A DNA stretch of 37,227 nucleotides from Gemmatimonadota bacterium (GTDB taxonomy: Bacteria; Gemmatimonadota; Gemmatimonadetes; Longimicrobiales; Gaopeijiaceae). The stretch spans positions 1 to 37,227 of the forward strand of contig SHZR01000026.1 of NCBI GenBank assembly GCA_009692205.1, in the 5' to 3' direction. The notes beneath the pieces were generated by a model, which saw only the letters and a list, made by a program, of their open reading frames with translations, searched no databases and had not been told where the DNA came from. The number at the start of each line of letters is the position of its first letter. Within the stretch, counting starts at the first letter, position 1. A program made the translations under genes and the position numbers. Positions 5,419-35,811 of this stretch are shown one piece after another.

Positions 5419-5754
5419 TCACTTCTTGGGTCGGTCGCCACCCCGCACGAGCTGCTCGATCTCGCCGAGGAGCGAGTCGGAGCCTGCTTCGCTCGCCCCG
5501 AAGAGCCCGTCTGAGGTCTCGCCTGCCTCCATGCGTCGAACGGCCCCATAGAGGTTGAGCCATCCGTCGAAGCGCTCGCTCACGCGCACCACGGAGTAGA
5601 ACCACCTCGGGCGCTCGCCCCCGCCGGAGACGAAGTCGACGATGAGGGCCAGGATCGACAGCTGGATCACAAGCAGGCTCTTGAGGCCGTCCAGCGCCAG
5701 CTTGACCTGGAAGATGACGAAGTCGCGCAGCGTCACCTTGCGTGTCGCGACCAC
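5419..5754 (-). CDS. Small membrane-associated protein of unknown function
   Basis: A 111-aa protein that I cannot assign to a family. It has a hydrophobic stretch near residues 24-42 (L-K-S-L-L-V-I-Q-L-S-I-L-A-L-I-V-D-F-V), a Gly-rich turn, an aromatic segment W-F-Y-S-V-V-R-V-S-E-R-F-D-G-W-L-N-L-Y-G, and an acidic then basic C-terminus. The reading frame is real rather than a shadow: it fills the gap between the PP2C gene and the divergent operon and lies in the same operon orientation as the phosphatase. Start is GTG at 5754, with a second GTG at 5736 possible. It may anchor or regulate the phosphatase, but this is inference from position only. Confidence 0.6.
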   Translation of the reverse strand: MVATRKVTLRDFVIFQVKLALDGLKSLLVIQLSILALIVDFVSGGGERPRWFYSVVRVSERFDGWLNLYGAVRRMEAGETSDGLFGASEAGSDSLLGEIEQLVRGGDRPKK

Positions 5755-5859
5755 CCTCGGCTTGTGGGCTATGTGCGAATCTATCCGCCAAGGGGCTCAG
5801 CGGCGACGACGCCCCGGGTGTCCTTACCACTTACTGACCCGAGCCCATCCCACCCCGGG

Positions 5860-5889
5860 TGGCCAGGAACCTTTCCCCGGCCGTACCAT
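5860..5889 (+). promoter_or_regulatory. Putative promoter of the DUF4159/MoxR block
   Basis: TGGCCA at 5860-5865 and TACCAT at 5884-5889 lie 18 nt apart, each matching four of six positions of a sigma-70 type consensus. Transcription would start near 5896, giving a leader of about 37 nt before the ATG at 5933. The gap between the divergent start at 5754 and 5933 is the only place a promoter for the plus-strand block can lie. The match is weak and the organism's own consensus is unknown. Confidence 0.3.
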
Positions 5890-5932
5890 ATGGGATGAGT
5901 CCGCCGCCCGATCACCCTCGCGGAGTCCGTCG

Positions 5933-6832
5933 ATGAGGCGCTTCCTTCTACGAGCCTGCACGCTGATGGCCGTCGCGACAGTCGCGATCGTGGCTCTCGC
6001 GCGTCGGGGCACGGAGGAGCGTCGGGGCCCGTACGTCATCGGGATCGGGGCGGAGCTCATGGCGCAACAGGCGCCCCAGCAGGGTCCCGCAGTGGTGGAT
6101 CGGGCGATGTTCGACGACCCGCGCGGGCCCTACCTGTCGCGCGAAGAGGTCTTCGCCACAGCGGGCAAGTTCCCGTTCTACTGGACGCGGGCGATCTACT
6201 CGGGAGGCGGGTTCGGCCGGCGCGGCTTCGGCGGCGGCTCCTGGGCGGTGGACTTCCCCAAGAGCGACCAACAGTTCCTGGTCGTCGTCAAACGGCTGAT
6301 GCACCTGAACGCCTACGACTGGGAGAACCCGGTATACCTGGGCGACCCCATCCTCCGCCGCTTCCCACTCATCTACATGCTCGAGGTCGGCGGCATGTTG
6401 CTGAGCGACGAAGAGGTGGAGGGGCTGCGGGGCTATATGGACGCGGGCGGCTTCGTGATCGTCGACGACTTCTGGGGCGCTGACGAGTGGGACGTGTTCG
6501 AGTACAACATGCGCCGAGTGTTCCCGGAGCCGGAACGGCAGTTCGTGGACATCGCGCTCGACCACCCGCTGTATTCCGCGTATTACATGATCGACCACGT
6601 GGAGATGACGCCGGCGATCAACAACACCCAGCAGCGCACCGAGTGCTACGGCTGCTTCACGCAGGTGAAGGGGATGTATGACGACGAGGGACGCTTGATG
6701 ATGGTGGTCAACTTCAACACCGACCTGGGCGACGCCTGGGAGTGGGCAGAAGATCCCTCGTACCCCCTCGAGACGTCGACCTACGCGTTCGAGATCGGCA
6801 CGAACCTCATCGTCTATTCGATGAGTCACTGA
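5933..6832 (+). CDS. DUF4159-family exported protein (first copy)
   Basis: A 299-aa protein with an N-terminal signal or anchor (M-R-R-F-L-L-R-A, then A-V-A-T-V-A-I-V-A-L-A). The body has the DUF4159 layout: F-Y-W-T-R-A-I-Y-S-G-G-G, a W-A-V-D-F-P-K-S-D block, a strand-helix pair Y-M-L-E-V-G-G, and G-G-F-V-I-V-D-D-F-W-G, which resembles the strand-and-acidic-turn of a GATase1-like fold. The C-terminus ends with aligned aromatic and Tyr motifs (Y-A-F-E-I-G-T-N-L-I-V-Y). DUF4159 is a recurrent neighbour of MoxR/vWA operons and has no proven activity. The start ATG follows the promoter gap. The gene is 7 nt from the next and is paralogous to the gene at 12732. Confidence 0.8.
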   Translation: MRRFLLRACTLMAVATVAIVALARRGTEERRGPYVIGIGAELMAQQAPQQGPAVVDRAMFDDPRGPYLSREEVFATAGKFPFYWTRAIYSGGGFGRRGFGGGSWAVDFPKSDQQFLVVVKRLMHLNAYDWENPVYLGDPILRRFPLIYMLEVGGMLLSDEEVEGLRGYMDAGGFVIVDDFWGADEWDVFEYNMRRVFPEPERQFVDIALDHPLYSAYYMIDHVEMTPAINNTQQRTECYGCFTQVKGMYDDEGRLMMVVNFNTDLGDAWEWAEDPSYPLETSTYAFEIGTNLIVYSMSH

Positions 6833-6839
6833 GGCGGCC

Positions 6840-9125
6840 ATGGACGGGCTCTTCGAGTTCTTCTTCAAGTACCGCCAAATCGTCTTTGAGCAGGGCGACT
6901 TCGCGTTCGCCGCGCCCGCGTCCGTGCGCACATGGCTCGGTATCGCGGGGGTGATCGGCGCGAGCGCCGTCGCGACGTACACGATCGCGCGGGGCAAGAG
7001 CTCGGTGCTCGACCGCGGCGTCATGGCCGGCCTCCGCGTGGCTCTGATCGGGGCGCTGGTGTTCTGCCTCATGCAGCCGTCGCTGACGCTCTCGACGGTC
7101 GTGCCGCAGCAGAACTTCGTCGGCGTGCTGCTCGACGATTCGCGCAGCATGCTCCTCGAGGACGAAGCGGGAGTGCCTCGGACCCAGTTCCTCGCCGAGT
7201 CTTTCACCCCGGAGGAGAGCGAGCTGTTGGCGGGGCTCTCGGAGCGCTTCGTGCTCCGGTTCTTCCGCTTCTCGGACGTCGCGCGCCGCATGGACGGCCT
7301 CGGCGAGATGACGTTCGACGGGACGCACTCGAACCTCGCGAACGCGCTCGACGCGGCTCGCGAAGAGCTCTCCGGCGTGCCGCTCTCGGGCCTCGTCATG
7401 GTCACGGATGGCGCCGACACGGGCGAGCGCCCGCTCACCGAGGCGATCGTTCCCCTCCAGGCCGCGGGCATCCCGGTGTTCACGGTGGGCGTTGGTGACG
7501 AGTCGATCGCGCCGGACATCGAGATCGGCCGGGTCGAGCTGCCTCGCACCGCCCTCGCGGGCTCCACCTTGATGGTGGACGTCGTCGTCACCCAGGACGG
7601 CTTCCGTGCCGGCACGATCGTGCCGGTGATCGTCGAGGACGACACGCGCATCCTCGTCGAGGAGAACGTCGAGCTCGGCCCCGACGGCGAGCCGGTCGTC
7701 ACGCGCATCGCGTTCGAGCTTCCCGAGGCAGGGGCGAAGCGTGTGCGCTTCCGCATTCCCGCGCAGCCGGGTGAGCGCGTCGACCGCAACAACGCGCGCG
7801 ATGCGTGGATCGACGTGCGCGGCGAGCGCGAGAAGATCCTCTATTTCGAAGGTGAGCCCCGCTGGGAAGTGAAGTTCATGCGGCGCGCGGTCACCGACGA
7901 CCAGAACCTCCAGCTCGTGCTCCTCCAGCGGACCGCGGAGGGCAAGTTCCTCCGCCTGGAAGTGAGCGACAGCACCGAGCTCGAGTTCGGCTTCCCGACC
8001 ACGCGCCAGGAGCTCTATCGCTACCGCGGGCTGGTCCTCGGCAGCGTGGAGGCATCGTTCTTCACGCACGATCAGATCCAAATGATCGCCGACTTCGTCT
8101 CCGAGCGCGGCGGTGGGCTCCTCTTCCTGGGCGGGCAGAGCGCCTTCGCCGAGGGTGGCTGGGCGGGCACCGCGGTGGAGGAGCTGATGCCGGTGGTGCT
8201 CGGCGAGCCGGACGGCGGCCCCGATGGCTTCTTCGCGGAAGTCGACGTCCGGCCCACTCCGGCCGGGCTCGTGCATCCGGCGGTGCAGCTCGATGCCGAG
8301 CCCGAGGATGTCACGGAGCGCTGGGAGGCGCTCCCGTCGTTGACCACCGTCAATCCGCTCGTCGAGATCCGGCCCGGCGCGACGGAGCTGCTCAGGGGAA
8401 CGCGGAGCACCGGCGGCGAGCAGACCGTACTCGCCTTCCAGCGGTACGGCCGCGGGACCTCGATCGCGTTCACGCCGCAGGACTCCTGGCTCTGGCAGAT
8501 GCACTCGGACATTCCGCTCGAGGACCAGACCCACGAGTCGTTCTGGAAGCAGATGCTCCGCTGGGTGGTGGACGGAGTGCCTGACGCGGTGGTGGCGGCG
8601 GCAGACCAGGAGCAGGTTGAGCCGGGCGAGATCGTCCGCGTCGTCGGAAGCATTGCGGACTCCACGTTCATCGAGGTGAATGACGCCTCGGTCACCGCCA
8701 CGGTCACGAGCCCGAGCGGCGCGATCGAGGTGGTCCCGATGGAGTGGACCGTCGAGGAAGACGGGGAATACGCAGCCGAGTTTCGGCCCTCCGAACTGGG
8801 AGACTACGAGATCACGATCAGCGCCGAGCGCAACGGTGCGACGCTGGGCTCCGACGTCACGTACGTGCACGCCGCGCCGAGCGACCGAGAGTACTTCGGC
8901 GCCGCCCGGCGGACGCAGCTCCTCCAGCGCATCGCGGACGACACCGGCGGGCGGTTCTACACGAGCGACGACGTATCCTCGCTGCCCGAGGACATCACGG
9001 TCACGGGAGCGGGGGTCACGCTCGCGGAGGAACTCGACCTCTGGGACATGCCGGCCCTCTTCATGCTCATGCTGCTGCTCATGGGAGCCGAGTGGGGCTA
9101 CCGCAGGGTCCGGGGGCTCGTTTGA
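6840..9125 (+). CDS. Membrane vWA/GATase1-like protein (BatA-like)
   Basis: This 761-aa protein has two N-terminal membrane segments (about 33-50 and 62-80). A von Willebrand A domain follows, with a metal-ion-dependent adhesion site D99-D-S-R-S103, a T-H-S-N-L loop and L-V-M-V-T-D-G. Next come one or two Ig-like beta regions, then a glutamine-amidotransferase-like domain (E-R-G-G-G-L-L-F-L-G-G-Q-S-A-F near 430-445) without an obvious catalytic Cys. A second beta domain and a C-terminal membrane helix (A-L-F-M-L-M-L-L-L-M-G) close the protein. The architecture is that of large BatA/YegL-like proteins found beside MoxR. It is likely an inner-membrane scaffold with a periplasmic domain. A GAGG ribosome site precedes the ATG, and its stop overlaps the next start as TTGA. 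Confidence 0.8.
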   Translation: MDGLFEFFFKYRQIVFEQGDFAFAAPASVRTWLGIAGVIGASAVATYTIARGKSSVLDRGVMAGLRVALIGALVFCLMQPSLTLSTVVPQQNFVGVLLDDSRSMLLEDEAGVPRTQFLAESFTPEESELLAGLSERFVLRFFRFSDVARRMDGLGEMTFDGTHSNLANALDAAREELSGVPLSGLVMVTDGADTGERPLTEAIVPLQAAGIPVFTVGVGDESIAPDIEIGRVELPRTALAGSTLMVDVVVTQDGFRAGTIVPVIVEDDTRILVEENVELGPDGEPVVTRIAFELPEAGAKRVRFRIPAQPGERVDRNNARDAWIDVRGEREKILYFEGEPRWEVKFMRRAVTDDQNLQLVLLQRTAEGKFLRLEVSDSTELEFGFPTTRQELYRYRGLVLGSVEASFFTHDQIQMIADFVSERGGGLLFLGGQSAFAEGGWAGTAVEELMPVVLGEPDGGPDGFFAEVDVRPTPAGLVHPAVQLDAEPEDVTERWEALPSLTTVNPLVEIRPGATELLRGTRSTGGEQTVLAFQRYGRGTSIAFTPQDSWLWQMHSDIPLEDQTHESFWKQMLRWVVDGVPDAVVAAADQEQVEPGEIVRVVGSIADSTFIEVNDASVTATVTSPSGAIEVVPMEWTVEEDGEYAAEFRPSELGDYEITISAERNGATLGSDVTYVHAAPSDREYFGAARRTQLLQRIADDTGGRFYTSDDVSSLPEDITVTGAGVTLAEELDLWDMPALFMLMLLLMGAEWGYRRVRGLV

Positions 9126-10126
9126 GGCGGGCGCTCGTCCTCGCCCTCTGCACCGCTCTCCTCGCCGCTGCCGCGCCGGACGAGACGCACGCGCAGAGCC
9201 GCACGCACGCAGTCATCGTCGTGGGCATCGGCGGCACTGCCGAGTACCGCGAAAGCTTCCACGCCGAGGCTTCGCAGATGTTCACCGCGTTGACGACCGA
9301 GCACGGATTCTCGCGGGACGAGGTGACCTACCTCGGCGAGACGGTCGAGACCGCGCCGGACATGATCACCGACCGCTCGACGCGCGCCAACGTGCTGAAG
9401 GTGCTCGGCGAGATCGCTCAGCGCGCGGGACCTACGGACCGCGTCCTGGTCATCCTCATCGGGCACGGGACCGACCAGGGGGGTGAGGCTCAGCTCAATC
9501 TCCCCGGGCCGGACATCACACCCACGGATTTCGAGCTCGCGGGTTTGGCGTTTCCCTCGCAGCCGCTCGCTCTCGTGCACACGGGAAGCGCGAGCGGCGG
9601 CTGGGTCGAGCCCCTCGCGGGCCCGAACCGCATCGTCATCGCGGCGACTCGTACGGCCCGCGAGCAGAACGCCACCGAGTTCGGGCAGTTCTTCGCGCAG
9701 GCGCTCTCGGGCGCGGGCGCGGACCTCGACCACGACGAGCGCGTCTCCCTGCTGGAGGCCTTCCTGTTCGCCAAACAGGAGGTCGAGCGGTACTACGAGG
9801 AGCAGAACGAGATCCTGACCGAGCACGCCGTGCTCGAAGACAACGGCGACGGCACCGGGAGCACGGACGCAGGCCCCGAAGGGCCGGACGGCGTCCTCGC
9901 CTCCACGTTCACGCTGGGCGGTGCGGCCGCCGCCGTGCGTACATCCGACGACCCCGTGCTCGCCCGCCTGTACGCGGAGCGGGACGGGATCCAGCGTCGC
10001 ATCGACGAGCTGCGCGTCGTGCGGACGGCGCTCACCGAGGACGAGTTCCTCGCGCGCTTGGAGCCGTTGCTCATCGAGCTCGCGCTCAAGAATCGCGAGA
10101 TCCGGGAAGCCGGCGGGGGCGTATGA
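9122..10126 (+). CDS. Secreted caspase-like (C13-like) protein, Cys replaced by Ser
   Basis: The 334-aa product starts at TTG 9122, overlapping the previous stop by 4 nt (TTGA). It has a signal peptide (R-A-L-V-L-A-L-C-T-A-L-L-A-A-A-A, cut near T-H-A-Q-S). The body has the caspase/legumain haemoglobinase layout. V-I-V-V-G-I-G-G begins the first strand, L-V-I-L-I-G-H-G supplies the His115-Gly dyad motif, and H-T-G-S-A-S-G-G-W lies where the catalytic Cys is expected, with Ser156 aligned to that Cys. A C-terminal block has D-L-D-H-D-E-R-V-S-L-L-E-A-F and E-D-N-G-D-G, which look like calcium-binding loops. It may be a Ser variant or an inactive pseudoprotease. The next gene starts within its stop as ATGA. 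Confidence 0.75.
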   Translation: MRRALVLALCTALLAAAAPDETHAQSRTHAVIVVGIGGTAEYRESFHAEASQMFTALTTEHGFSRDEVTYLGETVETAPDMITDRSTRANVLKVLGEIAQRAGPTDRVLVILIGHGTDQGGEAQLNLPGPDITPTDFELAGLAFPSQPLALVHTGSASGGWVEPLAGPNRIVIAATRTAREQNATEFGQFFAQALSGAGADLDHDERVSLLEAFLFAKQEVERYYEEQNEILTEHAVLEDNGDGTGSTDAGPEGPDGVLASTFTLGGAAAAVRTSDDPVLARLYAERDGIQRRIDELRVVRTALTEDEFLARLEPLLIELALKNREIREAGGGV

Positions 10127-12735
10127 GGTCGCTCGCGTGGGTCGCGCTGCTGCTCGCCGCCCCGCTCGCGGGCCAGGACCCCTCCGCCGCGCGCGCCGCG
10201 CTCCGCTCGGGAGAATACGAAGACGCGATCGACGAGTACCGCGGCGCGCTTCGGAGCGATGCCGGACTCGTGGACGCGCGCATCGGCCTCATGCAGGCGT
10301 TCCTCGCGACCGGAGCGTACGAGGAGGCCGTCACGGTCGGTCGCGAGGCACCCGTGCCCGGCGCAGTGGCGAACGCCACGGGCGAGGCGCTGCTGCGCTT
10401 GGGACGACTCGACGAGGCGGAAACCGCCTTCACCGAGGCGACGCGGGTGGGCGGGCCCTGGGCCCTTACTGCCGACGCGAACCTCGCCGAGCTGCTTTTC
10501 ATGCGTGGCCAGGTCGACGAGGCCATGAGCCGCTTCGATCGCTTCATCGACGTCTACAACAACGCCAACGGGGGCATGAACGCGCGCGATCTCGTCGCGG
10601 TGGGACGAGCGGTCACGTACCTCGGGCGCAACGAACCCAACCTGTTTCAGGACGCGCTGCGCGCCTACGACGAGGCCGCCGCTGCCGACCCGGGCTGGCA
10701 CGAGCCGCGCGTGCGGCTCGGCAACCTCTTTCTCGAGAAGTACGACAGCCCGGCGGCCCAGGAGGAGTTCCAGGCGGTCCTCGCGGAGAACCCGAACAAC
10801 CCCGCGGCCCTGCTCGGCATGGCGAAGGCGGTCGAGTTCGACGGGCAGGAGGACGCCCGCGCGACCATCGACCAGATCCTCGAGATCGATCCCAACCACG
10901 TCGAGGCGCGCATCCTGCTCGCGATGCGCTACCTCACGAACGAGCGCCACGCCGAGGCGCGCGCCGAGGCCGAGCAGGCGCTCCAGGTAAACCCTCAGTC
11001 TCTCCTGGCACTCACGGCGCTGGCGGGCTCACGCATGCTCGCGGACGACGTCGCGGGCTTCGAGCAGGCGAGGCAGCGCGTCTTCGCGATCAACCCTCGC
11101 TACGCCGAAATGGATGCGAGCCTCGCCGAGCTGGCCGTGCAGACGCGCCGGTACAGCGAGGCGGTCGAACGGGCGACCGAAGCCGTACGCCTCGACGCCG
11201 CGTCGTGGAAGGCGTGGGGGCTGCTTGGCATGAACCAGCTCCGGCTCGCGGACATCGAGACGGGCAGGTTGAACGTCGAGCGCGCCTTCGCGGGCGATCC
11301 CTTCAACCCGTGGTTCAAGAACAGCCTCGACCTGCTCGACACCTTCGATCGGTTCGCTCTCCACCCGACCGAGCACTTCGACCTCTTCCTGCACGGCACC
11401 GAGGGCGATCTGCTCGCGACGTACGTCGCGCCCATCGCCGAGGAAGCGTACGACAGCCTCTCGCGTCACTACGGCATTCAGCTCGAGTCACGCGTACGCG
11501 TGGAGCTGTTCCCGAGCCACGCCGACTTCTCGGTGCGCACGTTGGGCGAGGCCGGCCTCGGTGCTCTCGGCGTGAGCTTCGGCCCGCTGCTGGTCATGGA
11601 TTCGCCCGGCGCACGCACGCAAGGAGAGTACAACTGGGCGTCGGTCTTCTGGCACGAGCTCTCGCATACGTTCCACCTCGCACTCACGAACGGCCGCGTA
11701 CCGAGGTGGTTTTCCGAAGGCCTCGCGGTGCACGAGCAGCGCAAAGGCCGCCCGTGGTGGGGACATCAGCCCACCCTGCCCTTCCTGCAGGCACTCGGCG
11801 ACGGACGGCTGAAGCCGGTCAGCGAACTCAACGACGGCTTCATGCGGCCCGACTATCCGGAGCAGGTCATCTTCTCTTACTACCAGGCCTCGCTGGTCTT
11901 CCAGGTGATCGAGGAGCGCTGGGGCTTCGATGCGATCCGCTCCATGCTCGACGGATACCGGCGTGGCGAGACCACCGAGGCGCTCTTCGAGTCGGTTCTC
12001 GGGATGCCCATCGAGGCCTTCGACGACGAGTTCGACGACTACCTGCACACGCGCTTCGAGAGCCCGCTGGCGGCGCTGGTGGAGCTGGGTGAGCCGCCCG
12101 GGGACGGCGCCGGCGTTCCCGACCTCGAAGACTGGGTACGCGCGCATCCCGGGGACTTCCTCGGACGGATGCGACTCGGCGCTCTCTTGCTGCGGGATCG
12201 CCGCTTCGACGACGCCGAGGTGCAGTTCCGCGAAGCGCTGCGCATGTTCCCGGAGTACGGCGAGGCGGACAGCCCCTACTGGTTCCTCGCGCAGATCCAC
12301 CGCGAGCGCGGAGAGACCGAGCGCGCGGCGGCGGCGCTCTCTCGCCTGAACTCCCTCTCGGAGTCGAACTACCAGGCGCTCGTCCTCGAGGCCGACCTGC
12401 TGGAGGAGCTGGGCCGTCCCGCCGAGAGCGCGGCCGCTCTGGCCAAGGCGGTGCAGGTCTGGCCTTACGAGATGGAGCTGCATGAGCGGCTCGCGACCCT
12501 CAGCACGAGCATGGGCAACGCCGAGGACGCCGTCCGCGAGCGTACCGCGGTCGTCGCGCTCGCGCCGGCCGACCGCGCCCAGGCCCTCTACCTCTTGGCC
12601 GTCGCGCAAAGGGACGCGGGCGACGCGGCCGGGGCCCGCCGGTCCGTGCTGCGCGCGCTCGAGATCGCGCCGAACTACGACAGCGCGCTCGAACTCCTGC
12701 TGGAGCTGAGGGGCGCCGGAGCTTCCGCTCGATGA
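10123..12735 (+). CDS. TPR protein with a peptidase MA-like zinc metallopeptidase domain
   Basis: The 870-aa product begins with a short signal peptide (M-R-S-L-A-W-V-A-L-L-L-A-A-P-L-A-G). It continues with a long tetratricopeptide-repeat array (about residues 20-400; repeated A-L-x-x-G-x-x-x-x-A and G-x-x-D-E-A-x-x-x-F patterns). A gluzincin domain carries H511-E-L-S-H515 and the third ligand Glu532 in W-F-S-E-G-L-A, which is the HExxH plus distal Glu pattern of the peptidase MA-like clan. A second set of TPRs follows (about 670-870). The domain order TPR-HExxH-TPR suggests a periplasmic protease that picks client or partner proteins by TPR contacts. It is translationally coupled to genes on both sides. 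Confidence 0.85.
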   Translation: MRSLAWVALLLAAPLAGQDPSAARAALRSGEYEDAIDEYRGALRSDAGLVDARIGLMQAFLATGAYEEAVTVGREAPVPGAVANATGEALLRLGRLDEAETAFTEATRVGGPWALTADANLAELLFMRGQVDEAMSRFDRFIDVYNNANGGMNARDLVAVGRAVTYLGRNEPNLFQDALRAYDEAAAADPGWHEPRVRLGNLFLEKYDSPAAQEEFQAVLAENPNNPAALLGMAKAVEFDGQEDARATIDQILEIDPNHVEARILLAMRYLTNERHAEARAEAEQALQVNPQSLLALTALAGSRMLADDVAGFEQARQRVFAINPRYAEMDASLAELAVQTRRYSEAVERATEAVRLDAASWKAWGLLGMNQLRLADIETGRLNVERAFAGDPFNPWFKNSLDLLDTFDRFALHPTEHFDLFLHGTEGDLLATYVAPIAEEAYDSLSRHYGIQLESRVRVELFPSHADFSVRTLGEAGLGALGVSFGPLLVMDSPGARTQGEYNWASVFWHELSHTFHLALTNGRVPRWFSEGLAVHEQRKGRPWWGHQPTLPFLQALGDGRLKPVSELNDGFMRPDYPEQVIFSYYQASLVFQVIEERWGFDAIRSMLDGYRRGETTEALFESVLGMPIEAFDDEFDDYLHTRFESPLAALVELGEPPGDGAGVPDLEDWVRAHPGDFLGRMRLGALLLRDRRFDDAEVQFREALRMFPEYGEADSPYWFLAQIHRERGETERAAAALSRLNSLSESNYQALVLEADLLEELGRPAESAAALAKAVQVWPYEMELHERLATLSTSMGNAEDAVRERTAVVALAPADRAQALYLLAVAQRDAGDAAGARRSVLRALEIAPNYDSALELLLELRGAGASAR

Positions 12736-13496
12736 GCGGGGCGCGCCTGCTGGGCGCGGCATTCCTCGCCCTCTCGACCGCGGGTCTCGCGCCTTCGGGT
12801 CCGGACGTACGCCAGTCCGCCGACGAGCTGAACGCGCCCTACGACGGCCTCTACCACTTCGCGCGGGTCCGTTACGGCGGGCGTGACGGCGGCTTCGGGT
12901 TCCGTCGGCGCGGAGGCGAGGCCACGTGGGCCCACGACTATCCGCGTGCCGATCACAATTTCCTCAAGATCATGCAGGAAGCCACGCTCGTCCCCGTGCT
13001 CACCGACGGCTCGAACGTCGTGGCGCTCGACGATCCCGACCTGTTCCTCTACCCGGCCGCGTACATCGTGGAGCCGGGCTTCTGGCAGCCGTCGGACGAG
13101 GAAGCACGCTCGCTCGGGGAGTATCTCGAGAAAGGCGGCTTTCTCATCGTGGACGACTTCCGGGGCGACGACGAGCTCGACAACCTCCAGACCCAGCTCC
13201 GGCGCGCGCTGCCGGAGGGCAACATGGTCATGGTCGGCGACACCGACGAGATCTTCGACGCGTTCTTCCGGATCACGCCGCAGGAGGTCGTCCCGCCCTA
13301 CGGAGGGCTCCCTCCCTTCTGGTACGGGATCTACGAGGACAACGACCCGACCCGGCGGCTCCAAGTGATCATCAACGCCAACAACGACATGGCCGAGTAC
13401 TGGGAATACAGCGACTTCGGCTACTACCCCATCGACCTGTCTAACGAAGCGTACAAGCTGGGTGTGAACTATGTAGTGTACGCCCTGACGCACTAG
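12732..13496 (+). CDS. DUF4159-family exported protein (second copy)
   Basis: A 254-aa DUF4159 protein with an N-terminal signal peptide (M-S-G-A-R-L-L-G-A-A-F-L-A-L-S-T-A-G). It shares the layout of the first copy at 5933: Y-H-F-A-R-V-R-Y-G-G, W-A-H-D-Y-P-R-A-D, G-G-F-L-I-V-D-D-F-R-G-D-D, and a C-terminal Y-K-L-G-V-N-Y-V-V-Y-A-L. The two copies flank the vWA, caspase-like and metallopeptidase genes, consistent with an old duplication followed by divergence. The start overlaps the preceding stop as ATGA, so its translation is coupled to the metallopeptidase. The region after the stop (13497-13626) holds no gene. Function unknown; a role as an exported partner of the vWA proteins is inference. 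Confidence 0.8.
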   Translation: MSGARLLGAAFLALSTAGLAPSGPDVRQSADELNAPYDGLYHFARVRYGGRDGGFGFRRRGGEATWAHDYPRADHNFLKIMQEATLVPVLTDGSNVVALDDPDLFLYPAAYIVEPGFWQPSDEEARSLGEYLEKGGFLIVDDFRGDDELDNLQTQLRRALPEGNMVMVGDTDEIFDAFFRITPQEVVPPYGGLPPFWYGIYEDNDPTRRLQVIINANNDMAEYWEYSDFGYYPIDLSNEAYKLGVNYVVYALTH

Positions 13497-13553: not shown

Positions 13554-13626
13554 TCCCCCCGCGGTGTCCTCCCCACCGACATCGACTGGGGCTCCCCGCC
13601 CCATCACAACTGAAACGGAGACGACC

Positions 13627-14667
<1,041 letters not shown>

Positions 14668-14682: not shown

Positions 14683-15600
14683 TTGGCCGCCCCGCGCACC
14701 CGAGCCGGCTCTGGCACGCAGTTTCTCGATCCTGCCGTCCTCGGCCGGATCGGAAACTTGCAGCTGTTGGCCAAGACCGTCGTCGACGGCTTCCTGACCG
14801 GGCTGCACCGCTCGCCCTACCTGGGGTTCAGCATCGACTTCGCCGAGCACCGGGCATACATGCCCGGAGACGACATTCGGCGCATCGACTGGAAGCTCTT
14901 CGCGCGCACCGACCGGTACTACATCAAACTGTTCGAGGCGGACACGAACGCGAACTTCGTCGTCTTGCTCGACGTGTCGAAGTCCATGAGCTACGTGAGC
15001 CACTCGCTCACCAAGCTCGACTACGCGCGCTACCTCGCGGCGTGCCTGACGTTCTTCTCGAGCCAGCAGCGCGACCGCGTCGGGCTCGTCACCTTCGACA
15101 GCGAGATCGTCGAGTGGGTGCGGCCGTCCATGAAGCACCTCGACACCGTGCTGCACGTGCTCGACCGCGCGACGGCTGGGCGTCGGGGAAGTCTCGAGGC
15201 GCCGCTGCTGCAGGTGACGGAGCTCCTGGGCCGGAAGGGGATCCTGGTTCTGATCTCGGATTTCTACGAGGATCCCGACAAGGTCATCTCCGCGGTGGGG
15301 CCGCTGCGTGCGAGCGGGCACGACGTGGTCGTCTTCCACGTGATGGATCCGGCGGAGCTCGAGTTCCCGTTCGAGGATCCGTCGGGCTTCGAGGACATGG
15401 AGACGCAGGAGCAGATCCCCGTCATTCCGCTCAAGCTGCGCGAGGACTATAAGAGGATGGTGAGCGCGCATTCCGAGGCGCTCCGTGATCGCTTCACCGG
15501 GAACCGGATCGACTACACGCTCCTGGACACGTCGAAGCCGCTCGATCTCGCGCTCTTCCAGTACCTGCTCGCCCGCGAGCGACTGAGCAAGACCCGATGA
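14683..15600 (+). CDS. DUF58/vWA-like protein
   Basis: The 305-aa protein is a DUF58 member. It has [11 protein letters not shown], then [23 protein letters not shown], the most diagnostic family stretch. This is followed by a vWA core with D97-V-S-K-S101 (MIDAS) and [10 protein letters not shown]. The initiation codon is TTG at 14683, preceded by AGAGG. DUF58 proteins pair with MoxR in nearly all known MoxR operons and are thought to be the ATPase's direct client or adaptor. It lies 15 nt after moxR and its stop overlaps the BatA-like start as ATGA, so the three genes are translated together. Confidence 0.9.
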
Positions 15601-17726
15601 GCCTTACCTTCCTCGTTCCGCTCTTCCTGCTAGGGATCGCGGGCATCGTGGTCCCCATCGTCGTGCACCTGACGCGGCGCCAGCGGCGCAACGTGGTGCA
15701 CTTCCCGTCGCTCATGTTCCTGGAGAAGGTCCCCTACCAGGAGCAGCGCCGCCGCCGCATCCAGCACTGGTTCCTCCTCATGCTGCGGGCGCTCGCGCTC
15801 GCCATGCTTGCGTTCGCGTTCGCGCGGCCGTTCCTCGACGATTCTGAGCTGGGTCTCCTGGCCTCTGGCGGGCCGCGCGAGGTCGTCGTGCTCGTGGACC
15901 AGTCGTACAGCATGGAGCTCGGCGACCAGCTCGAGACCGCACGCGATGGCGCGCAAGAAGTCTTCGATGGTCTCGGTCCGCTCGACCGCGCCTCGCTGGT
16001 GAGCTTCTCGCAGGGCGCTCGCGTGCTCGCGCGTTCGACCTCCGATCGCGCGCGCCTCCAGACGGCGGTCGACACCCTACAGCTCAGCTCGGGATCGACC
16101 CGGTACGGCCCGGCGCTCAAGGTCGCGCAGGCGATTCTCGAGGAGTCCACGCTGCCGAGTGGCGAGGTCTACCTCTTCAGCGACTTCCAGCGCAACGGAT
16201 GGATCGGTGACGAGGGGGTCCGGCTCCCGCCCGGCTCGAGGTTCATCCCGCGGCCGACGGGCGAGGAAGAGCTCGACGACAACTTCCTCGTCACGGACGT
16301 CACGCTACCGCGGCAGTTCGTCGCGGGTCGCGAGCGCATCACGCCGACGGCTCGCATCGTGCGCCGCGGCGGGTCGTCTCCGCGAGACGTCGAGGTCGCG
16401 CTCGAGATCGACGGCCAGCGACTGCAGTCCCGGACCGTGAGCATGGCGCCCGACGCGGCCGCGGGGGTCGCGTTCGAAGCCTTCACGCTGTCGCGTCCGC
16501 ACACGCGAGGCAGCGTCTCGTTACCCGACGATGGGCTCCACGCCGACAACACGCACCACTTCGTGGTCTCGCCCGGAACCTCGCTCGCGGTGCTGATCGT
16601 GGAGGGGGCCTCGGCGGCGCGTGACGTGAGCCTCTACCTGCGACGCGCCCTCGAGATCACCGACGACGGCCGCTTCCGGGTCACCGTCCGCCGCGCGAGC
16701 AGCGTGCGGCCGGCAGACCTCGAGGGAATCGATGCGGTCTTCCTGAACGACGTGCAGATCGACGGCGCCTCGGCGGAGCGCCTACGGGCCTTCGTCGACG
16801 CCGGGGGCGGCATCCTGATCGCGCTCGGCGAGCAGGGTGGCTGGCCCGCGTCGGCCGCCGATCTCCTGCCCGGCCAAATAGGGCCGGTCCAGGATCGCCT
16901 CCAAGGGCGCGGAGGGCGCCTCGGCCACCTCGAGTACGGGCACGCCATCTTCGAGGCGTTCGCCGGGCCCCGCAGCGGGGACTTCACGGGTGCTCGGTTC
17001 TTCCGCGCGCGGGCGTTCCAGCCCTCGCCCGAAGCGGCTGTGCTCGCGCGCTTCGACGACGGGTCGGTCGCGCTCGCCGAGCTGCGTCGTGGCCGTGGCA
17101 AGGTGCTGGTGTGGACGAACACGCTCGACGGCTTCTGGAGCGACCTCGCCCTCCAGCCGGTCTACCTGCCGTTCGTGCACCGCCTCGCCGAATACCTGGG
17201 GGGCCGCGCTGAAGCGACCCCGTGGTTCACCATCGGCCAGATTGTGGACCTCGCCAATGCCGACGCCCTCCTGACCGCGGGGCTGGTGGCGTCCGAGGCG
17301 ATCGGCCTGGCCGAGGGCCTCAACCAGATCGCGCTCACGCCTTCGGGCACGTCGATCCAACTGCCGGCGGACGAGGGACCGCGGTACCTGCCGCTCGAAG
17401 AGCACGGGTTCTACACGGTGCGGCCCCCGGCCTCGGAGCCGGAGCGGCCGTTCGTGCTGGCGGTCAACGTGGACATCGAGGAGTCGAACCTCACGCGCTT
17501 GGACCCCGAGCAGCTCTCGCTCCAGATCATGGCGGAGCCCGGCGCGGCGTGGGGTGGGCTTAACGTGGACCAGGCCGCCGCCCTCCAACGGGAGGACCAG
17601 GAGCGTCGCCAATCCCTATGGCGCTGGCTCCTGCTGGGCGCGCTCGCGTTGTTCATCGCAGAGACCGCCCTCTCGAACTGGGTGTCCCGCACGGGCGGGG
17701 GGGCGCAGGGGGCGGTCGCGGGTTAG
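15597..17726 (+). CDS. BatA-like membrane vWA protein
   Basis: The 709-aa protein starts with the aerotolerance-regulator N-terminal domain: a helix at about 5-25 ([13 protein letters not shown]), the H-L-x-R-R-Q-R-x-x-V-x-F-P-S-L-M-F-L signature, and a second helix at 57-80. A vWA domain follows with D101-Q-S-Y-S105. Next come a beta region, a GATase1-like segment ([16 protein letters not shown]) and a C-terminal membrane helix near 675-698. It is a distinct paralogue of the 761-aa protein at 6840, with the same final domain order. An inner-membrane scaffold remodelled by MoxR is the likely role. It is translationally coupled to DUF58, and 69 nt separate it from the DUF4175-like gene. Confidence 0.85.
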
Positions 17727-17795: not shown

Positions 17796-20700
17796 ATGAG
17801 GGATTCCGACAGGCGGCTGGCGCGCACTCGAATCTTCGATGTCGTGCGGGGTGTGCGGTGGCGGTGGCGGACCCGACAGATCCTCCGCGGCTTGGTCTGG
17901 GTGGGCAGTCTCACGGGCCTGGTGGCCTTCGCGTCGGCCTTCGGCCTCGAGCGCGTGCGCTTCGCCGCCGAGTGGGTGATCGCTTTCCGCTACCTGACGT
18001 GGGGCACCCTCCTCGTCTCCGCCGTCTTCTTCCTGGTTCGCCCGTTGCGCCAGCGCGTGACCGACGCGCAGGTCGCGCTTTACCTCGAGGAGCACGAGCC
18101 CACGCTCGAGCACTCGGTCGTGAGCGCGCTCGACGACGGCGCCACCACGTTCTCTCCCGACCTACACGAGCGGGTGATCGACCTCGCGCTGGAGAAGGCG
18201 CGCCAAGTGCACTACGGTCGGCGCGTCGAGCAGGGTCGACTCTACCGCTTCGCGGGCGCGCTCACCGGACTCGTCGTGCTCGCCCTCGCCACCACGCTGC
18301 TCGGGCCGGCGCATCTCCGGAACGGTCTGACGGCGCTGCTGGTGCCCACGCGCGCCGCGGCCGCGGTGAACCCGTATTCGGTGGCCGTCACGCCAGGCGA
18401 TGCCACGATCCCACGCAACTCCGACCAGATGATCACGGCTGTGCTCGGTGGCTTCGATGCCGCAGACGCGTCGATCTTCATTCGCACCGAGTCCGAGCAA
18501 GGCTTCTCGCGTCTCAGCATGCTCCCGGGCATCGAGGCCGGCTTCGAGTTGCTGCTGCTAGGTGTGGCGGAGCACACGGAGTACTTCGTGGAGTCTTCGG
18601 GCGTCCGCTCGCCGACGTTCACCATTGAGGTGGCGGACCTCCCTTACGTCGACCAGCTCGATCTCACATACATCTATCCGGCCTACACGGGCATGCCGCC
18701 TCGCGTCGTCGAGGACGCAGGGGACGTCGCCGCGCTGCCCGGGACGGTCGTCGAGCTCCGTATCGCGCCGACGATGCTCGCGCCGGCGGGCCGCTTACTC
18801 CTCGATCAGGAGGCGGCGAGCGAGCTGACGCTCCAGCCCGGCGGCACATTCACCACACGCTTCACGATCGGGGAAGACCGCTACTACTCGATCGAGCTCG
18901 CGCGCGCGAGCGGCGCGCTCGTGCCTGCGTCGCCCGAGTACACCATCGACGTGCTCACGGACCGGGACCCGTCGATCGGGTTCTCGCGGCCCGGACGGGA
19001 CGACACGGCTTCGCCCATCGAAGAGTTCTACTTGGAGATGAGCGCGAACGACGACTACGGCGTTCGTGACGTGCGCCTGGTGTACTCGGTGAACGCGGGC
19101 CCCGAGGACACGATCCCGGTCTTCCAGACTTCGGGTGCGCCACTCGCCGAGGTGTCGGCCGGCCACACGCTCTTCCTCGAGGAGTGGCAGCTCGAGCCGG
19201 GCGACCTCGTCTCGTACTACGCGATCGCGCGGGACAACCGTCCCGGCGTTTCGAATCCCGTCACGAGCGACATCTACTTCATCTCGGTCCGGCCCTTCGA
19301 GCGCGCGTATCGCGAGGCCGAGCAGGGGGGCGGAGGCGGGGGTGGCGGCGGTGGCCAGCAGGAGACGCCGCTCTCCGAGTTGCAGCGGCAGATCATCGCG
19401 GCCACGTTCAACCTCATTCGGCAGCAGGACAGCTATTCCGATAGCGAGTTCAGCGAGTATGTGGTCAGCGTCGGACTCTCGCAGGAGCGGTTGATCGGTC
19501 AGGTCGGCACACTGCTCGAGCGGATGCGGAACCGCGGCCTGACCCAGCAGGACCAGGGCTTCGTCGATGTATCCACGGTGCTGCCGCTCGCCGTCGACGC
19601 GATGACGCGCGCGAAGGAGCATCTCGACCGCCAAGAACTACGCGACGCGCTCCCGGACGAGCAGGAGGCGCTGCGTTACCTCCAGCAGGCCGAGGAGACC
19701 TACGAGCGCATCGTGCAGCAACAGCAGGGCGGCGGCGGCGGGGGCGGCGGCGGCGGGGACCAGCAAGCCGCCGAGGACCTGGCCGACCTGTTCGAGTTGG
19801 AGCTCGACAAGCTCCAGAACCAGTACGAGACCGTGCAGCGTGGACAGCGCGAGCAGAGCGACAACGAGGTCGATGAGTTGCTCGAGCAGCTCCAGGAGTT
19901 GGCTCGTCGGCAGGAGCAGGAAGCCGAGCGTCAGCGCCGCAGGGCGATTCAGCAATCCGGACAGTCGTCGGGCGGCGGCCAGGCCCAGCGCGACCTCGCT
20001 GAGGAGACCGAAGAAGCTGCGCGTCAGCTGCAGCGACTGGCACGCGAGATGAACGACCAGCAGCTCGAGGAGACCGCGCGCGACCTCCAGCAGGCAGCCG
20101 AGTCCATGCGCCAGTCCGCGTCGCAGTCGGGCGCCGCGGGATCTTCAGAGTCGGCGTCTGCGCTCCAGCGGCTCGAGGAGGCGCGTCGCAGCCTCGAAGA
20201 CGCGAGGGAAGCGCGGGCGGGCAGGGACACCGAGGAGGCGCTCCAGCAGGTCGAGGAGCTCCAGCAGCAGCAGCGCGAGGTGCAGCGCGACGTGCGTAAC
20301 CTACCCGCGCAGCGCAGCCCGGAACGGACGCAGCAGATCGAGGATCTGCGCGAGCGGAAGGACCAGATGAATGAGGCCGTCGCGGACCTCGAGCGCGAGC
20401 TCGACCGTGCCGCCAGCGGCGCGCGCGCCGACAACCCGGAGGCCGCGCGGGACCTGCAGGCTGCCTCCAACCTAATCCGCGAGTCGAAGCTGCGTGAGAA
20501 GATCCAGTACTCCCGCGGCACTATCGAGCAGTGGGACCCGCAGTCGGCCGTGACGTTGGAGCTCAACATCGAGGCCGACCTGCAAGCACTCCGCGACCAG
20601 CTCGAGCAGGCTCAGGGCCAGTCGAGTCAGCGCTCCGAGGATCCCATGGAGCGCGCGCTCGACGAGACGCGAGAGCTGGTCCGCGGGATGGAGGCGATGG

Positions 20701-21377
20701 GCCGCAGGCTCAACGAGCCCGGCCAACAGGGTCAGCAAGGCGACCAGGGTCAACAGGGTCAACAGGGTCAGCAGGGCCAACAAGGCCAACAAGGCCAGGG
20801 TGGTCAGCAAGGGCAACAGGGCCAGGGTGGCCAGCAAGGCCAGCAAGGGCAGCAGGGCCAACAGGCTGGTCAGCAAGGGCAGCAGGGCCAGGGTGGCCAG
20901 CAGGGTCAGCAAGGCGACCAACAGGGTGGCGGCGGGGGCGCCGACGGCTTTGCCGGCGGCATCCGGGACTACTCGGCCTTCGGTGGCGGCACGCGCGGAG
21001 ACCCGCGGCAGCTCACCCCGGAGGAGAGGCGTCAGTACCAAGGCGAGCTGGAGCAGCGCGCCGACCAACTCGGCAACCTGCGCGACCAGTTCCGAGACAT
21101 GGGGCGGCCGGTCGGGGACCTCCAAGAGGTGCTCGAGGGCCTCGAGCGTCTCCAGGGGGGCAGCATCACGGACCCGCGGGATCTCGCCCTGATCCACGAG
21201 GACATGCTGGACCAGCTGAAGCGGATCGAGTTCGGGCTACGCCGCGAGGTCGAAGGGGAAACGACCCGGTGGGCCACGCTCACCGGTTCGGACGACGTGC
21301 CCGACGGGTATCGCGCCCTGGTCGAGGAGTACTACAGGTCGCTGGCGCGCGCGCAGACGAGCGCACCGAGCAACTAG
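17796..21377 (+). CDS. DUF4175-like giant coiled-coil membrane protein with a collagen-like tail
   Basis: The 1193-aa protein has membrane helices at about 31-50, 61-82 and 150-168, then Ig-like beta domains to about residue 500. Gly-rich linkers (ten glycines near residue 510 and again near 650) flank and lead into a coiled-coil region extremely rich in Gln, Glu and Arg (about 660-970). A Gly-x-x tail of repeated G-Q-Q/G-Q-G triplets follows (DNA 20721-20929, about residues 976-1045). It closes with G-G-x-R-x-Y-S-A-F and a helical C-terminal domain. Proteins with the N-terminal architecture are called DUF4175 and often close MoxR/BatA operons. The start ATG has GGGAGAGGG upstream. It is probably anchored in the inner membrane with the rod reaching into the periplasm. 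Confidence 0.8.
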   Translation: MRDSDRRLARTRIFDVVRGVRWRWRTRQILRGLVWVGSLTGLVAFASAFGLERVRFAAEWVIAFRYLTWGTLLVSAVFFLVRPLRQRVTDAQVALYLEEHEPTLEHSVVSALDDGATTFSPDLHERVIDLALEKARQVHYGRRVEQGRLYRFAGALTGLVVLALATTLLGPAHLRNGLTALLVPTRAAAAVNPYSVAVTPGDATIPRNSDQMITAVLGGFDAADASIFIRTESEQGFSRLSMLPGIEAGFELLLLGVAEHTEYFVESSGVRSPTFTIEVADLPYVDQLDLTYIYPAYTGMPPRVVEDAGDVAALPGTVVELRIAPTMLAPAGRLLLDQEAASELTLQPGGTFTTRFTIGEDRYYSIELARASGALVPASPEYTIDVLTDRDPSIGFSRPGRDDTASPIEEFYLEMSANDDYGVRDVRLVYSVNAGPEDTIPVFQTSGAPLAEVSAGHTLFLEEWQLEPGDLVSYYAIARDNRPGVSNPVTSDIYFISVRPFERAYREAEQGGGGGGGGGGQQETPLSELQRQIIAATFNLIRQQDSYSDSEFSEYVVSVGLSQERLIGQVGTLLERMRNRGLTQQDQGFVDVSTVLPLAVDAMTRAKEHLDRQELRDALPDEQEALRYLQQAEETYERIVQQQQGGGGGGGGGGDQQAAEDLADLFELELDKLQNQYETVQRGQREQSDNEVDELLEQLQELARRQEQEAERQRRRAIQQSGQSSGGGQAQRDLAEETEEAARQLQRLAREMNDQQLEETARDLQQAAESMRQSASQSGAAGSSESASALQRLEEARRSLEDAREARAGRDTEEALQQVEELQQQQREVQRDVRNLPAQRSPERTQQIEDLRERKDQMNEAVADLERELDRAASGARADNPEAARDLQAASNLIRESKLREKIQYSRGTIEQWDPQSAVTLELNIEADLQALRDQLEQAQGQSSQRSEDPMERALDETRELVRGMEAMGRRLNEPGQQGQQGDQGQQGQQGQQGQQGQQGQGGQQGQQGQGGQQGQQGQQGQQAGQQGQQGQGGQQGQQGDQQGGGGGADGFAGGIRDYSAFGGGTRGDPRQLTPEERRQYQGELEQRADQLGNLRDQFRDMGRPVGDLQEVLEGLERLQGGSITDPRDLALIHEDMLDQLKRIEFGLRREVEGETTRWATLTGSDDVPDGYRALVEEYYRSLARAQTSAPSN
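20721..20929 (+). repeat. Collagen-like G-Q-Q/G-Q-G triplet repeat tract
   Basis: About 70 codons are built almost only of Gly and Gln with Gly mostly at every third position, broken by D-Q and A-G insertions. The DNA is an imperfect array of 9-nt units ggtcagcaa/ggccaacag with mixed codons, so it is a protein-level repeat and not a clean DNA satellite. Length can vary by slippage. It lies within the DUF4175-like gene. Confidence 0.85.
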
Positions 21378-33851: not shown

Positions 33852-34804
33852 CCTTCGAGCTCGCGCGCCCGGCCTGGCTCTGGCTGCTCGCCATTCTGCC
33901 GCTGTGGTGGTGGTACGTCCGCCCGGGCTCGGGTTGGGGGCTGCTCGTCGCTCGCGGCGACGAGGCCCGGTCCGTGTCGCTGCGTCGCTGGACGGCCGCG
34001 GCCGTCGAGGGCGCCCCGCGACTCCTCCGCGCCGCGGCCGTCGCGTGCTTGGTGGTGGCGCTCGCGAGGCCGCAGCTCGTGCGCACCTATCGGGAACCGC
34101 GCAGCGAAGGCGTTGGCATCGCCATCGCCATCGACCTCTCCACGTCGATGTGGGCGCTGGACATGGGACCGGGAACGACGCGTCTCCAGGCAGCCAAGGA
34201 GGCCGTGCAGCGCTTCCTCGTGAGTCGCGACGCCGACGACGACATCGGGCTCGTGTCGTTCGCTGGAGAGGCCCACGTCCGACTTCCGCTCACCTACGAT
34301 CGGTACGTGGTGCAAGAGGCTGTCTCTGGGCTCGAGGTCGGGCTGCTCCTCGACGGCACGGACATCGCGGGCGCGATCGCGATGGGCGCAGGGCTCCTCA
34401 AGGATGCGCCGCAGAGCAGCAAGATGCTCATCCTCGTCACGGACGGCGCACACAACAAAGCCGGCCTCGTCCCCGGCATGGCCGCGAGGGCCGCAGCGGC
34501 CGTCGGCGTGACGATCTTCCCGATCGCGATCGGCTCGGAGGAGGCACTCCAGCGGGGCGGCTCCGGCATGGAGACCGTCCTCGCGCAAGCGGCCCGCATC
34601 ACCGGCGGGCGCTACTTCCGTGCGACGGACGTCTCGGCACTCGATCAGATCTACGCGGAGATCGATCGGCTCGCGGTCCGCTCCGAGGAGATCGTCGAGC
34701 GGACCGAGGTCACGCCGGTGGGGCACTGGTTCTTCCTGGCCGCGCTCGCCCTCCTCGTGGGCGGGAGCACGCTGCGCGCATCCCCGTGGGGAGTCCTGCC
34801 ATGA
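33848..34804 (+). CDS. batA: BatA-like vWA protein
   Basis: The 318-aa protein has N-terminal membrane helices (A-W-L-W-L-L-A-I-L-P-L-W-W-W-Y and L-L-R-A-A-A-V-A-C-L-V-V-A-L). A vWA domain follows with the full metal site D96-L-S-T-S100, T-D-I in the G-T-D-I-A-G-A-I loop and V-T-D-G-A-H-N. A C-terminal helix (W-F-F-L-A-A-L-A-L-L-V-G-G) closes it. This is a typical BatA, an inner-membrane protein of the Bacteroides aerotolerance system; its true function is unresolved. GTG at 33848 overlaps the BatD stop (GTGA), and the stop overlaps batB as ATGA. Confidence 0.88.
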   Translation: MTFELARPAWLWLLAILPLWWWYVRPGSGWGLLVARGDEARSVSLRRWTAAAVEGAPRLLRAAAVACLVVALARPQLVRTYREPRSEGVGIAIAIDLSTSMWALDMGPGTTRLQAAKEAVQRFLVSRDADDDIGLVSFAGEAHVRLPLTYDRYVVQEAVSGLEVGLLLDGTDIAGAIAMGAGLLKDAPQSSKMLILVTDGAHNKAGLVPGMAARAAAAVGVTIFPIAIGSEEALQRGGSGMETVLAQAARITGGRYFRATDVSALDQIYAEIDRLAVRSEEIVERTEVTPVGHWFFLAALALLVGGSTLRASPWGVLP

Positions 34805-35811
34805 CGCTCGCGCGCCCGGAGTTGCTCGCGCTCGTGCCGCTCGGCGCGGCGCTCCTCACGCTCGCGCTCGTGGTCCAGTGGAAGCGCCTCCGGAGGCTCG
34901 AACAGCTGTTCGGCGATTCCGCGCTCCGGCGGCTCCTCCCGCTCGCGGCGCGTCGTTTTCCCGTCGCCCGCCTGCTCTGCCTCGTGCTGGCGGGCGTCGC
35001 GATCGCCCTTGGCGCAGTGGGCGTTGCGCAGGACGCGCCCGCGCCCCCTCCGCCCGTAGCGCCGCTCGACCTGGCAATCGCGGTCGATGTGTCGCTCTCG
35101 ATGGGCGCGGCCGACACCGAGCCCAGCCGCGTCGCCCGCGCGCGGCAGGTCGTCACGCGTCTGTCCGAGGCCCTGCCGGGAGCACGCACCGTGCTCGTGG
35201 TCTTCGCAGATTGGCCCTACACCCTCGTGCCTCCCACGGACGATCCCGCCGTCGTGGGCTATTTCGCAGAGGCGCTCGAGGCGAACCTCCTGCTCGACCG
35301 TGACCAAGGGACCGCACTCTCGGCCGCGATCGCGCAGGCGCGTGAGGCGCTCGCGTCGCGTCCTCGCCCGGGGGCCCGCCGCGTGATCCTGGTGCTCTCC
35401 GACGGTGGCGCGCACGAGGGCGAGTCCGCGGTGCTCGCCGAAGCCGCTGCCGCAGCCGCGGACGGCTTGGAGGTGTGGGCGGCGGGGCTCGGCACCGAAC
35501 GCGGCGCGGAAATCGGGACCGAGACCGGTCCGGTGTTGGACGCAGGGGGCGTCCCCCTGGTGGCACGCCTCGACGAGGCTCTCTTGCAGCGGATGGCCGC
35601 GGCTGGAGGCGGACGCTACGAGCGCGTGAGTGACGACCGAGGCCTGCGCTCGCTCGTCGCCGGACTCCAGGATCTGGCGGAGCCATCGGCGACGGACCGC
35701 CCCGCGTCCGGAGACCTGACCTTCCTGCTCGCGCTCTTCGCGTTCCCGCTGCTCCTGATCGAGGGGGCCTTGGACGGGGGGAGGGGCGCGCGGCCCCGGG
35801 AGGACGCATGA
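34801..35811 (+). CDS. batB: BatB-like vWA protein
   Basis: The 336-aa protein has a membrane helix pair (A-L-L-T-L-A-L-V-V and L-C-L-V-L-A-G-V-A-I-A). A vWA domain follows with D96-V-S-L-S100, T-A-L-S-A-A-I and L-V-L-S-D-G-G-A-H-E. A C-terminal helix (L-T-F-L-L-A-L-F-A-F-P-L-L-L-I) closes it. It is the second vWA subunit of the Bat operon, and is expected to sit with BatA in the inner membrane. ATG at 34801 overlaps the BatA stop and the stop overlaps the TPR gene as ATGA. Confidence 0.87.
   Translation: MTLARPELLALVPLGAALLTLALVVQWKRLRRLEQLFGDSALRRLLPLAARRFPVARLLCLVLAGVAIALGAVGVAQDAPAPPPPVAPLDLAIAVDVSLSMGAADTEPSRVARARQVVTRLSEALPGARTVLVVFADWPYTLVPPTDDPAVVGYFAEALEANLLLDRDQGTALSAAIAQAREALASRPRPGARRVILVLSDGGAHEGESAVLAEAAAAAADGLEVWAAGLGTERGAEIGTETGPVLDAGGVPLVARLDEALLQRMAAAGGGRYERVSDDRGLRSLVAGLQDLAEPSATDRPASGDLTFLLALFAFPLLLIEGALDGGRGARPREDA

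Follow-up and report, generated by a model that had tools for sequence, protein, structure and literature searches.

The gene at positions 9122 to 10126 of the window (the whole 37,227-nucleotide stretch of DNA that was analysed) quite probably encodes an exported pseudopeptidase of the C13 type, with a legumain/caspase fold, that possibly binds calcium and would be kept as a subunit of a MoxR/vWA system. It lies on the forward strand, as do all the parts of the operon described here, begins with TTG at 9122 and specifies 334 amino acids, its stop codon ending at 10126. Read by eye, the N-terminus resembles a signal peptide (9122-9196), with an RR pair, a hydrophobic stretch and a cleavage-like site, THA-Q; the structural model has a helix at residues 2-15. 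This supports the apparent export of the protein, which had been proposed in the preliminary description of this DNA. The translational coupling to both neighbours that was claimed there agrees with the overlaps found on either side: the TTG start shares bases with the stop codon of an upstream vWA gene (TTGA, 9122-9125), and the gene's own stop codon overlaps the ATG of a TPR metallopeptidase gene downstream (ATGA, 10123-10126). Each overlap is 4 bp long; that between the vWA and pseudopeptidase genes is seen again in 97 of 230 homologous loci. Direct fusion of the vWA and pseudopeptidase genes, which long open frames had hinted at, was seen in none of the 230.

The AlphaFold2 model of the 334-residue protein (pLDDT 91.4, pTM 0.80) retrieves legumains as its best Foldseek matches (E 5e-9, probability 1.00), followed by GPI transamidase, caspase-11 and metacaspases, and so presents the alpha/beta fold of the clan CD caspases and haemoglobinases; the preliminary description had staked its caspase-like reading on structure prediction, and the predicted fold is caspase-like. 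Taken alone, the window protein matches nothing in Pfam or NCBIfam, PF01650 included, and searches of NCBIfam, PADLOC and Rfam yield nothing for the protein or for the window. Among 46 relatives, 31 match PF01650 (Peptidase_C13) at E<=0.1, the best at 9.4e-10, and one (L272) scores above the curated cut-off (36.6 bits versus 22.8). Profile-profile alignment (hhalign) of the family with Cys-bearing C13 proteins gives a probability of 99.2% and an E value of 7e-20 over 204 columns. Matches to metacaspases are weaker: they are all that the window protein finds among PDB sequences, weakly, over residues 33-142, and the profile of the 46 relatives meets metacaspase-4 at 3e-5 over residues 51-119. 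A search of the source genome with PF00656 (C14) found other loci and not this gene, and membership in C14 was rejected on this ground and on the weakness of the PDB matches. Neither is the protein a pseudo-orthocaspase in the sense of a C14 p20 domain with an altered His-Cys dyad, since by profile it is not C14 and its His is kept. "Caspase-like" was therefore the right word at the level of the clan, but Foldseek, the PF01650 matches and hhalign agree that, as judged from model and sequence, the nearest family is C13 (legumain) and not the C14 caspases. A C14 protein with GHG and DSCHSG intact, apparently exported, is encoded in the source genome too (L001:1417-2304, contig C32 of G000), and another Gemmatimonadota caspase-like protein (L278:1180-2244), in which RGAG replaces the His motif and DAADAAG occupies the Cys segment, is apparently dead at both. 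The sole C14 protein of Gemmatimonadetes known at the time of an earlier survey was without the dyad (PMC3501461).

Of the two catalytic residues of a C13 peptidase only one is present. The catalytic His, which in C13 follows a core strand as part of an HG motif, is matched by H115 (CAC, 9464-9466) in GHG, which aligns with the His of Cys-bearing C13 proteins and is found in every one of 226 distinct family members. The catalytic Cys is matched by S156 (AGC, 9587-9589) in the segment S156-A-S-G-G, which the hhalign alignment sets on the Cys of the relatives with no gap. Both residues had been picked out correctly at the outset. The 226 members come from sampled genomes and are related to each other, so that counts among them are not counts of independent events. 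Cys occurs at position 156 in none of the 226, and the family is accordingly not one of active C13 peptidases but only a pseudopeptidase relative of them.

The preliminary description had weighed a Ser-type caspase against a pseudoprotease and had suggested looking at whether Ser is fixed among homologues. It is not: residue 156 is Ser in 185 members, Thr in 25, Pro in six, Glu in five, Ala in two, Asn in two and Asp in one. On a tree of 105 members, built with column 156 omitted, all non-Ser members retained and Ser-bearing members thinned, the site has changed between Ser and non-Ser at least 14 times. (The window protein's nearest relatives in that tree carry Thr; closer, Ser-bearing relatives exist outside the thinned set.) When columns are ordered by conservation, that of S156 comes only 59th among 307, in contrast with invariant H115, D201, E212 and E234. 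Because Ser156 is not fixed, a Ser-type caspase is disfavoured, and the pseudoprotease is the favoured one of the two. A true clan CD hydrolase of the serine/threonine type, working with a dyad of Ser156 (or Thr) and His115, would have to treat the Pro, Glu, Ala, Asn and Asp members as secondary losses. It can appeal to Ser or Thr in 210 of the 226 (93%), to SG following in most, to the invariance of H115, and to retention of the fold and of the segment around the former nucleophile; a hydroxyl at 156 together with an invariant His is more than many pseudoenzymes keep. On the same tree, however, the hydroxyl has been gained or lost at least nine times, two loci of the window's own family (L027 and L034) have Pro at 156 and retain a vWA gene upstream, and other proteins with Ser at the catalytic Cys position, metacaspase 4 of Trypanosoma brucei (PMC6657590) and SERA5 of Plasmodium (PMC4671257), are reported to be inactive or non-enzymatic. 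We regard such a hydrolase as improbable, and its more elaborate version, a calcium-gated caspase-fold hydrolase or acyl-transferase with a Ser/Thr-His dyad inside a MoxR/vWA machine, as very improbable; if true, the Ser/Thr-His dyad would define a hydroxyl-nucleophile branch of clan CD. The combination of an unvarying His with a residue 156 that has drifted to Pro and Glu speaks against a serine protease and in favour of a pseudopeptidase: a site apparently free to drift since the Cys was lost fits a pseudopeptidase better.

That loss is old and not peculiar to the window gene, since Cys is missing throughout the operon-linked family. The Cys is retained, in ACYSGG and the like, by C13 proteins outside the operon, whether from the same class, from Gammaproteobacteria or from other groups; gammaproteobacterial members linked to the operon carry Ser at 156 instead. 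Cys therefore disappeared from the operon-linked family either in a single event or at an early stage. Acidobacteriota possess a second version that has diverged further, in which SASF, EASF or SGSF-like segments replace SASG (L200-L202, L247, L254-L263); those with Glu at 156 have a vWA gene nearby and no match to the TPR metallopeptidase. Some acidobacterial members have a Cys one residue past the catalytic position, in PCSG, SCSG, TCSG or NCSG (L191/L199, L246, L251, L256). These variants, together with Ser at position 158 in 222 of the 226 members, might be taken to mean that the nucleophile has moved to a nearby residue, either S158 or 157. Position 157 is occupied by Ala in 170 of the 226, however, and members with EASF or AASF have no Ser, Thr or Cys at either 156 or 157. 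The Ser of the SG pair is common to most of the aligned Cys-bearing relatives, so that conservation of S158 is no evidence of catalysis, and a nucleophile displaced to 157 or 158 is accordingly judged highly unlikely.

What the family does hold constant lies elsewhere. H115, D201, E212 and E234 are invariant in the 226 members, and R170 and D131 nearly so. D201 and E212 delimit a loop of the EF-hand type (9722-9757; D201-x-D203-x-D205-x-R-V-S209-L-L-E212) whose relaxed pattern, DxDxDxxxSxxE in type, recurs in 226 of 226 members and also in several Cys-bearing C13 relatives; matches to the EF-hand_5 profile are weak and confined to four of 46 relatives. Of the calcium-like loops that had been pointed out at the start, this one is thus upheld by its pattern, but a second acidic loop, DNGDGTG (D240-N-G-D-G, 9839-9859), is less conserved. 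The invariant His, with D201/E212, E234, D131 or R170, might form a metal- or ligand-dependent site that is independent of residue 156, making the protein some other enzyme or a ligand sensor (a calcium switch), and the constancy of just these residues speaks for it. Yet the His, the HG motif and the D and E of the loop are shared with Cys-bearing C13 relatives, the loop being aligned by hhalign with its C13 counterpart, and may therefore be inherited structure. We consider such a site unlikely.

The pseudopeptidase gene sits in a long operon of one polarity. A DUF4159 gene (5642-6832, its true start probably downstream of 5642) is followed by the vWA gene (6840-9125), the pseudopeptidase gene and the gene for a TPR protein with a Peptidase_MA-like metallopeptidase domain (10123-12735, HELSH...E). 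Beyond these lie genes for a second DUF4159 protein (12732-13496), a MoxR-type AAA+ ATPase (13564-14667, AAA_3 at 1.8e-60), a DUF58 (vWA-like) protein (14683-15600), a BatA/vWA membrane protein (15597-17726) and a large DUF4175-like protein (17796-21377). (Another vWA-domain protein, VWA_2 at 4.3e-18, is encoded at 33904-35811, outside the operon.) The vWA partner is modelled with hydrophobic helices at residues 27-49, 56-77 and, C-terminally, 738-758, a vWA domain, beta domains and an amidotransferase-like alpha/beta domain; its MIDAS motif, DxSxS, is intact in 74 sequences apart from a single S to T change. Its best Foldseek matches, with low whole-chain TM-score, are eukaryotic oligosaccharyltransferase subunits and amidotransferase-like proteins. 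One partner finds its closest matches in an oligosaccharyltransferase subunit and amidotransferase-like proteins and the other resembles legumain and the GPI transamidase subunit, which may reflect common folds only. The metallopeptidase motif HExxH...E is retained in 133 of 137 neighbouring homologues.

The gene is present in 149 of 295 genomes of the window's class (about half), which is not chance. In Acidobacteriota, 103 of 297 sampled genomes (about a third) give a match at E<=0.001, which in some of them is confined to weaker relatives that bear Cys; a few Gammaproteobacteria carry family members, and a plasmid collection gave one partial match. The vWA gene is found in the fetched stretch for 221 of the 226 distinct members, upstream and on the same strand where checked. 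When a search of the same 295 genomes for the vWA protein is set against that for the pseudopeptidase, 147 genomes have both, two the pseudopeptidase alone (G031, G126), four the vWA protein alone (G074, G193, G242, G277) and 142 neither, several of the exceptions being partial or contig-edge matches. This near-obligate link, a genomic one, singles out the upstream vWA protein, a membrane protein, as the partner. Genes for the TPR metallopeptidase, MoxR, DUF58, BatA and DUF4159 proteins follow in most loci for which the stretch is long enough; the TPR metallopeptidase is a common neighbour that is absent beside some subclades.

A pseudopeptidase in this setting would lack peptidase activity. 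A calcium ion in the EF-hand-type loop might steady its fold, and the former active-site groove, or the C-terminal helical hairpin of the AlphaFold2 model (residues 278-331, 9953-10114), could bind a partner, either the MIDAS-bearing vWA protein or a client peptide. Within a MoxR/DUF58/BatA-type system the protein may thus be a subunit that recognises or scaffolds other components on the periplasmic side, and the co-encoded TPR metallopeptidase would be the likely proteolytic member.

Several known systems are comparable in part. Legumain and other Peptidase C13 proteins (PF01650), among them the catalytic subunit of GPI transamidase, share the fold, HG motif, SG segment and, for the 31 of 46 relatives that match at E<=0.1, the sequence profile; the window family differs in having no catalytic Cys in any member and in possessing the C-terminal hairpin and a bacterial operon partner. 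Bacterial pseudo-orthocaspases (PMC6426788) are likewise caspase-fold proteins with Ser for Cys, the commonest replacement in prokaryotic C14 proteins (PMC3501461). They belong to C14, however, mostly also lose the His (to Tyr) and come mainly from Alphaproteobacteria and Cyanobacteria, whereas the window family is C13-like, invariantly keeps its His, is apparently exported and is bound to an operon. Trypanosoma brucei metacaspase 4 and SERA5, already referred to, are eukaryotic members of the C14 and papain families, and their context is not shared. In MoxR-vWA ternary systems (PMC7159879), MoxR and vWA genes also accompany caspase-fold domains, but there the domains form part of fusions with the vWA or VMAP proteins of conflict systems; in the window the C13-like protein is separate, apparently exported and part of a BatA/DUF58/DUF4159-type operon with no PADLOC match.

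Pseudo-caspases are already known in C14. No paper on the present family was found in the open-licence literature, nor any report there of a family of C13-type pseudopeptidases that is exported, has an invariant His and an EF-hand-type loop, and is matched nearly one for one by a vWA protein throughout a bacterial class. The family offers a tangible way into an uncharacterised periplasmic system of the MoxR/BatA/DUF4159 kind, and its Cys-bearing and Cys-less relatives form a natural set for asking what role the caspase fold plays after catalysis has been lost.
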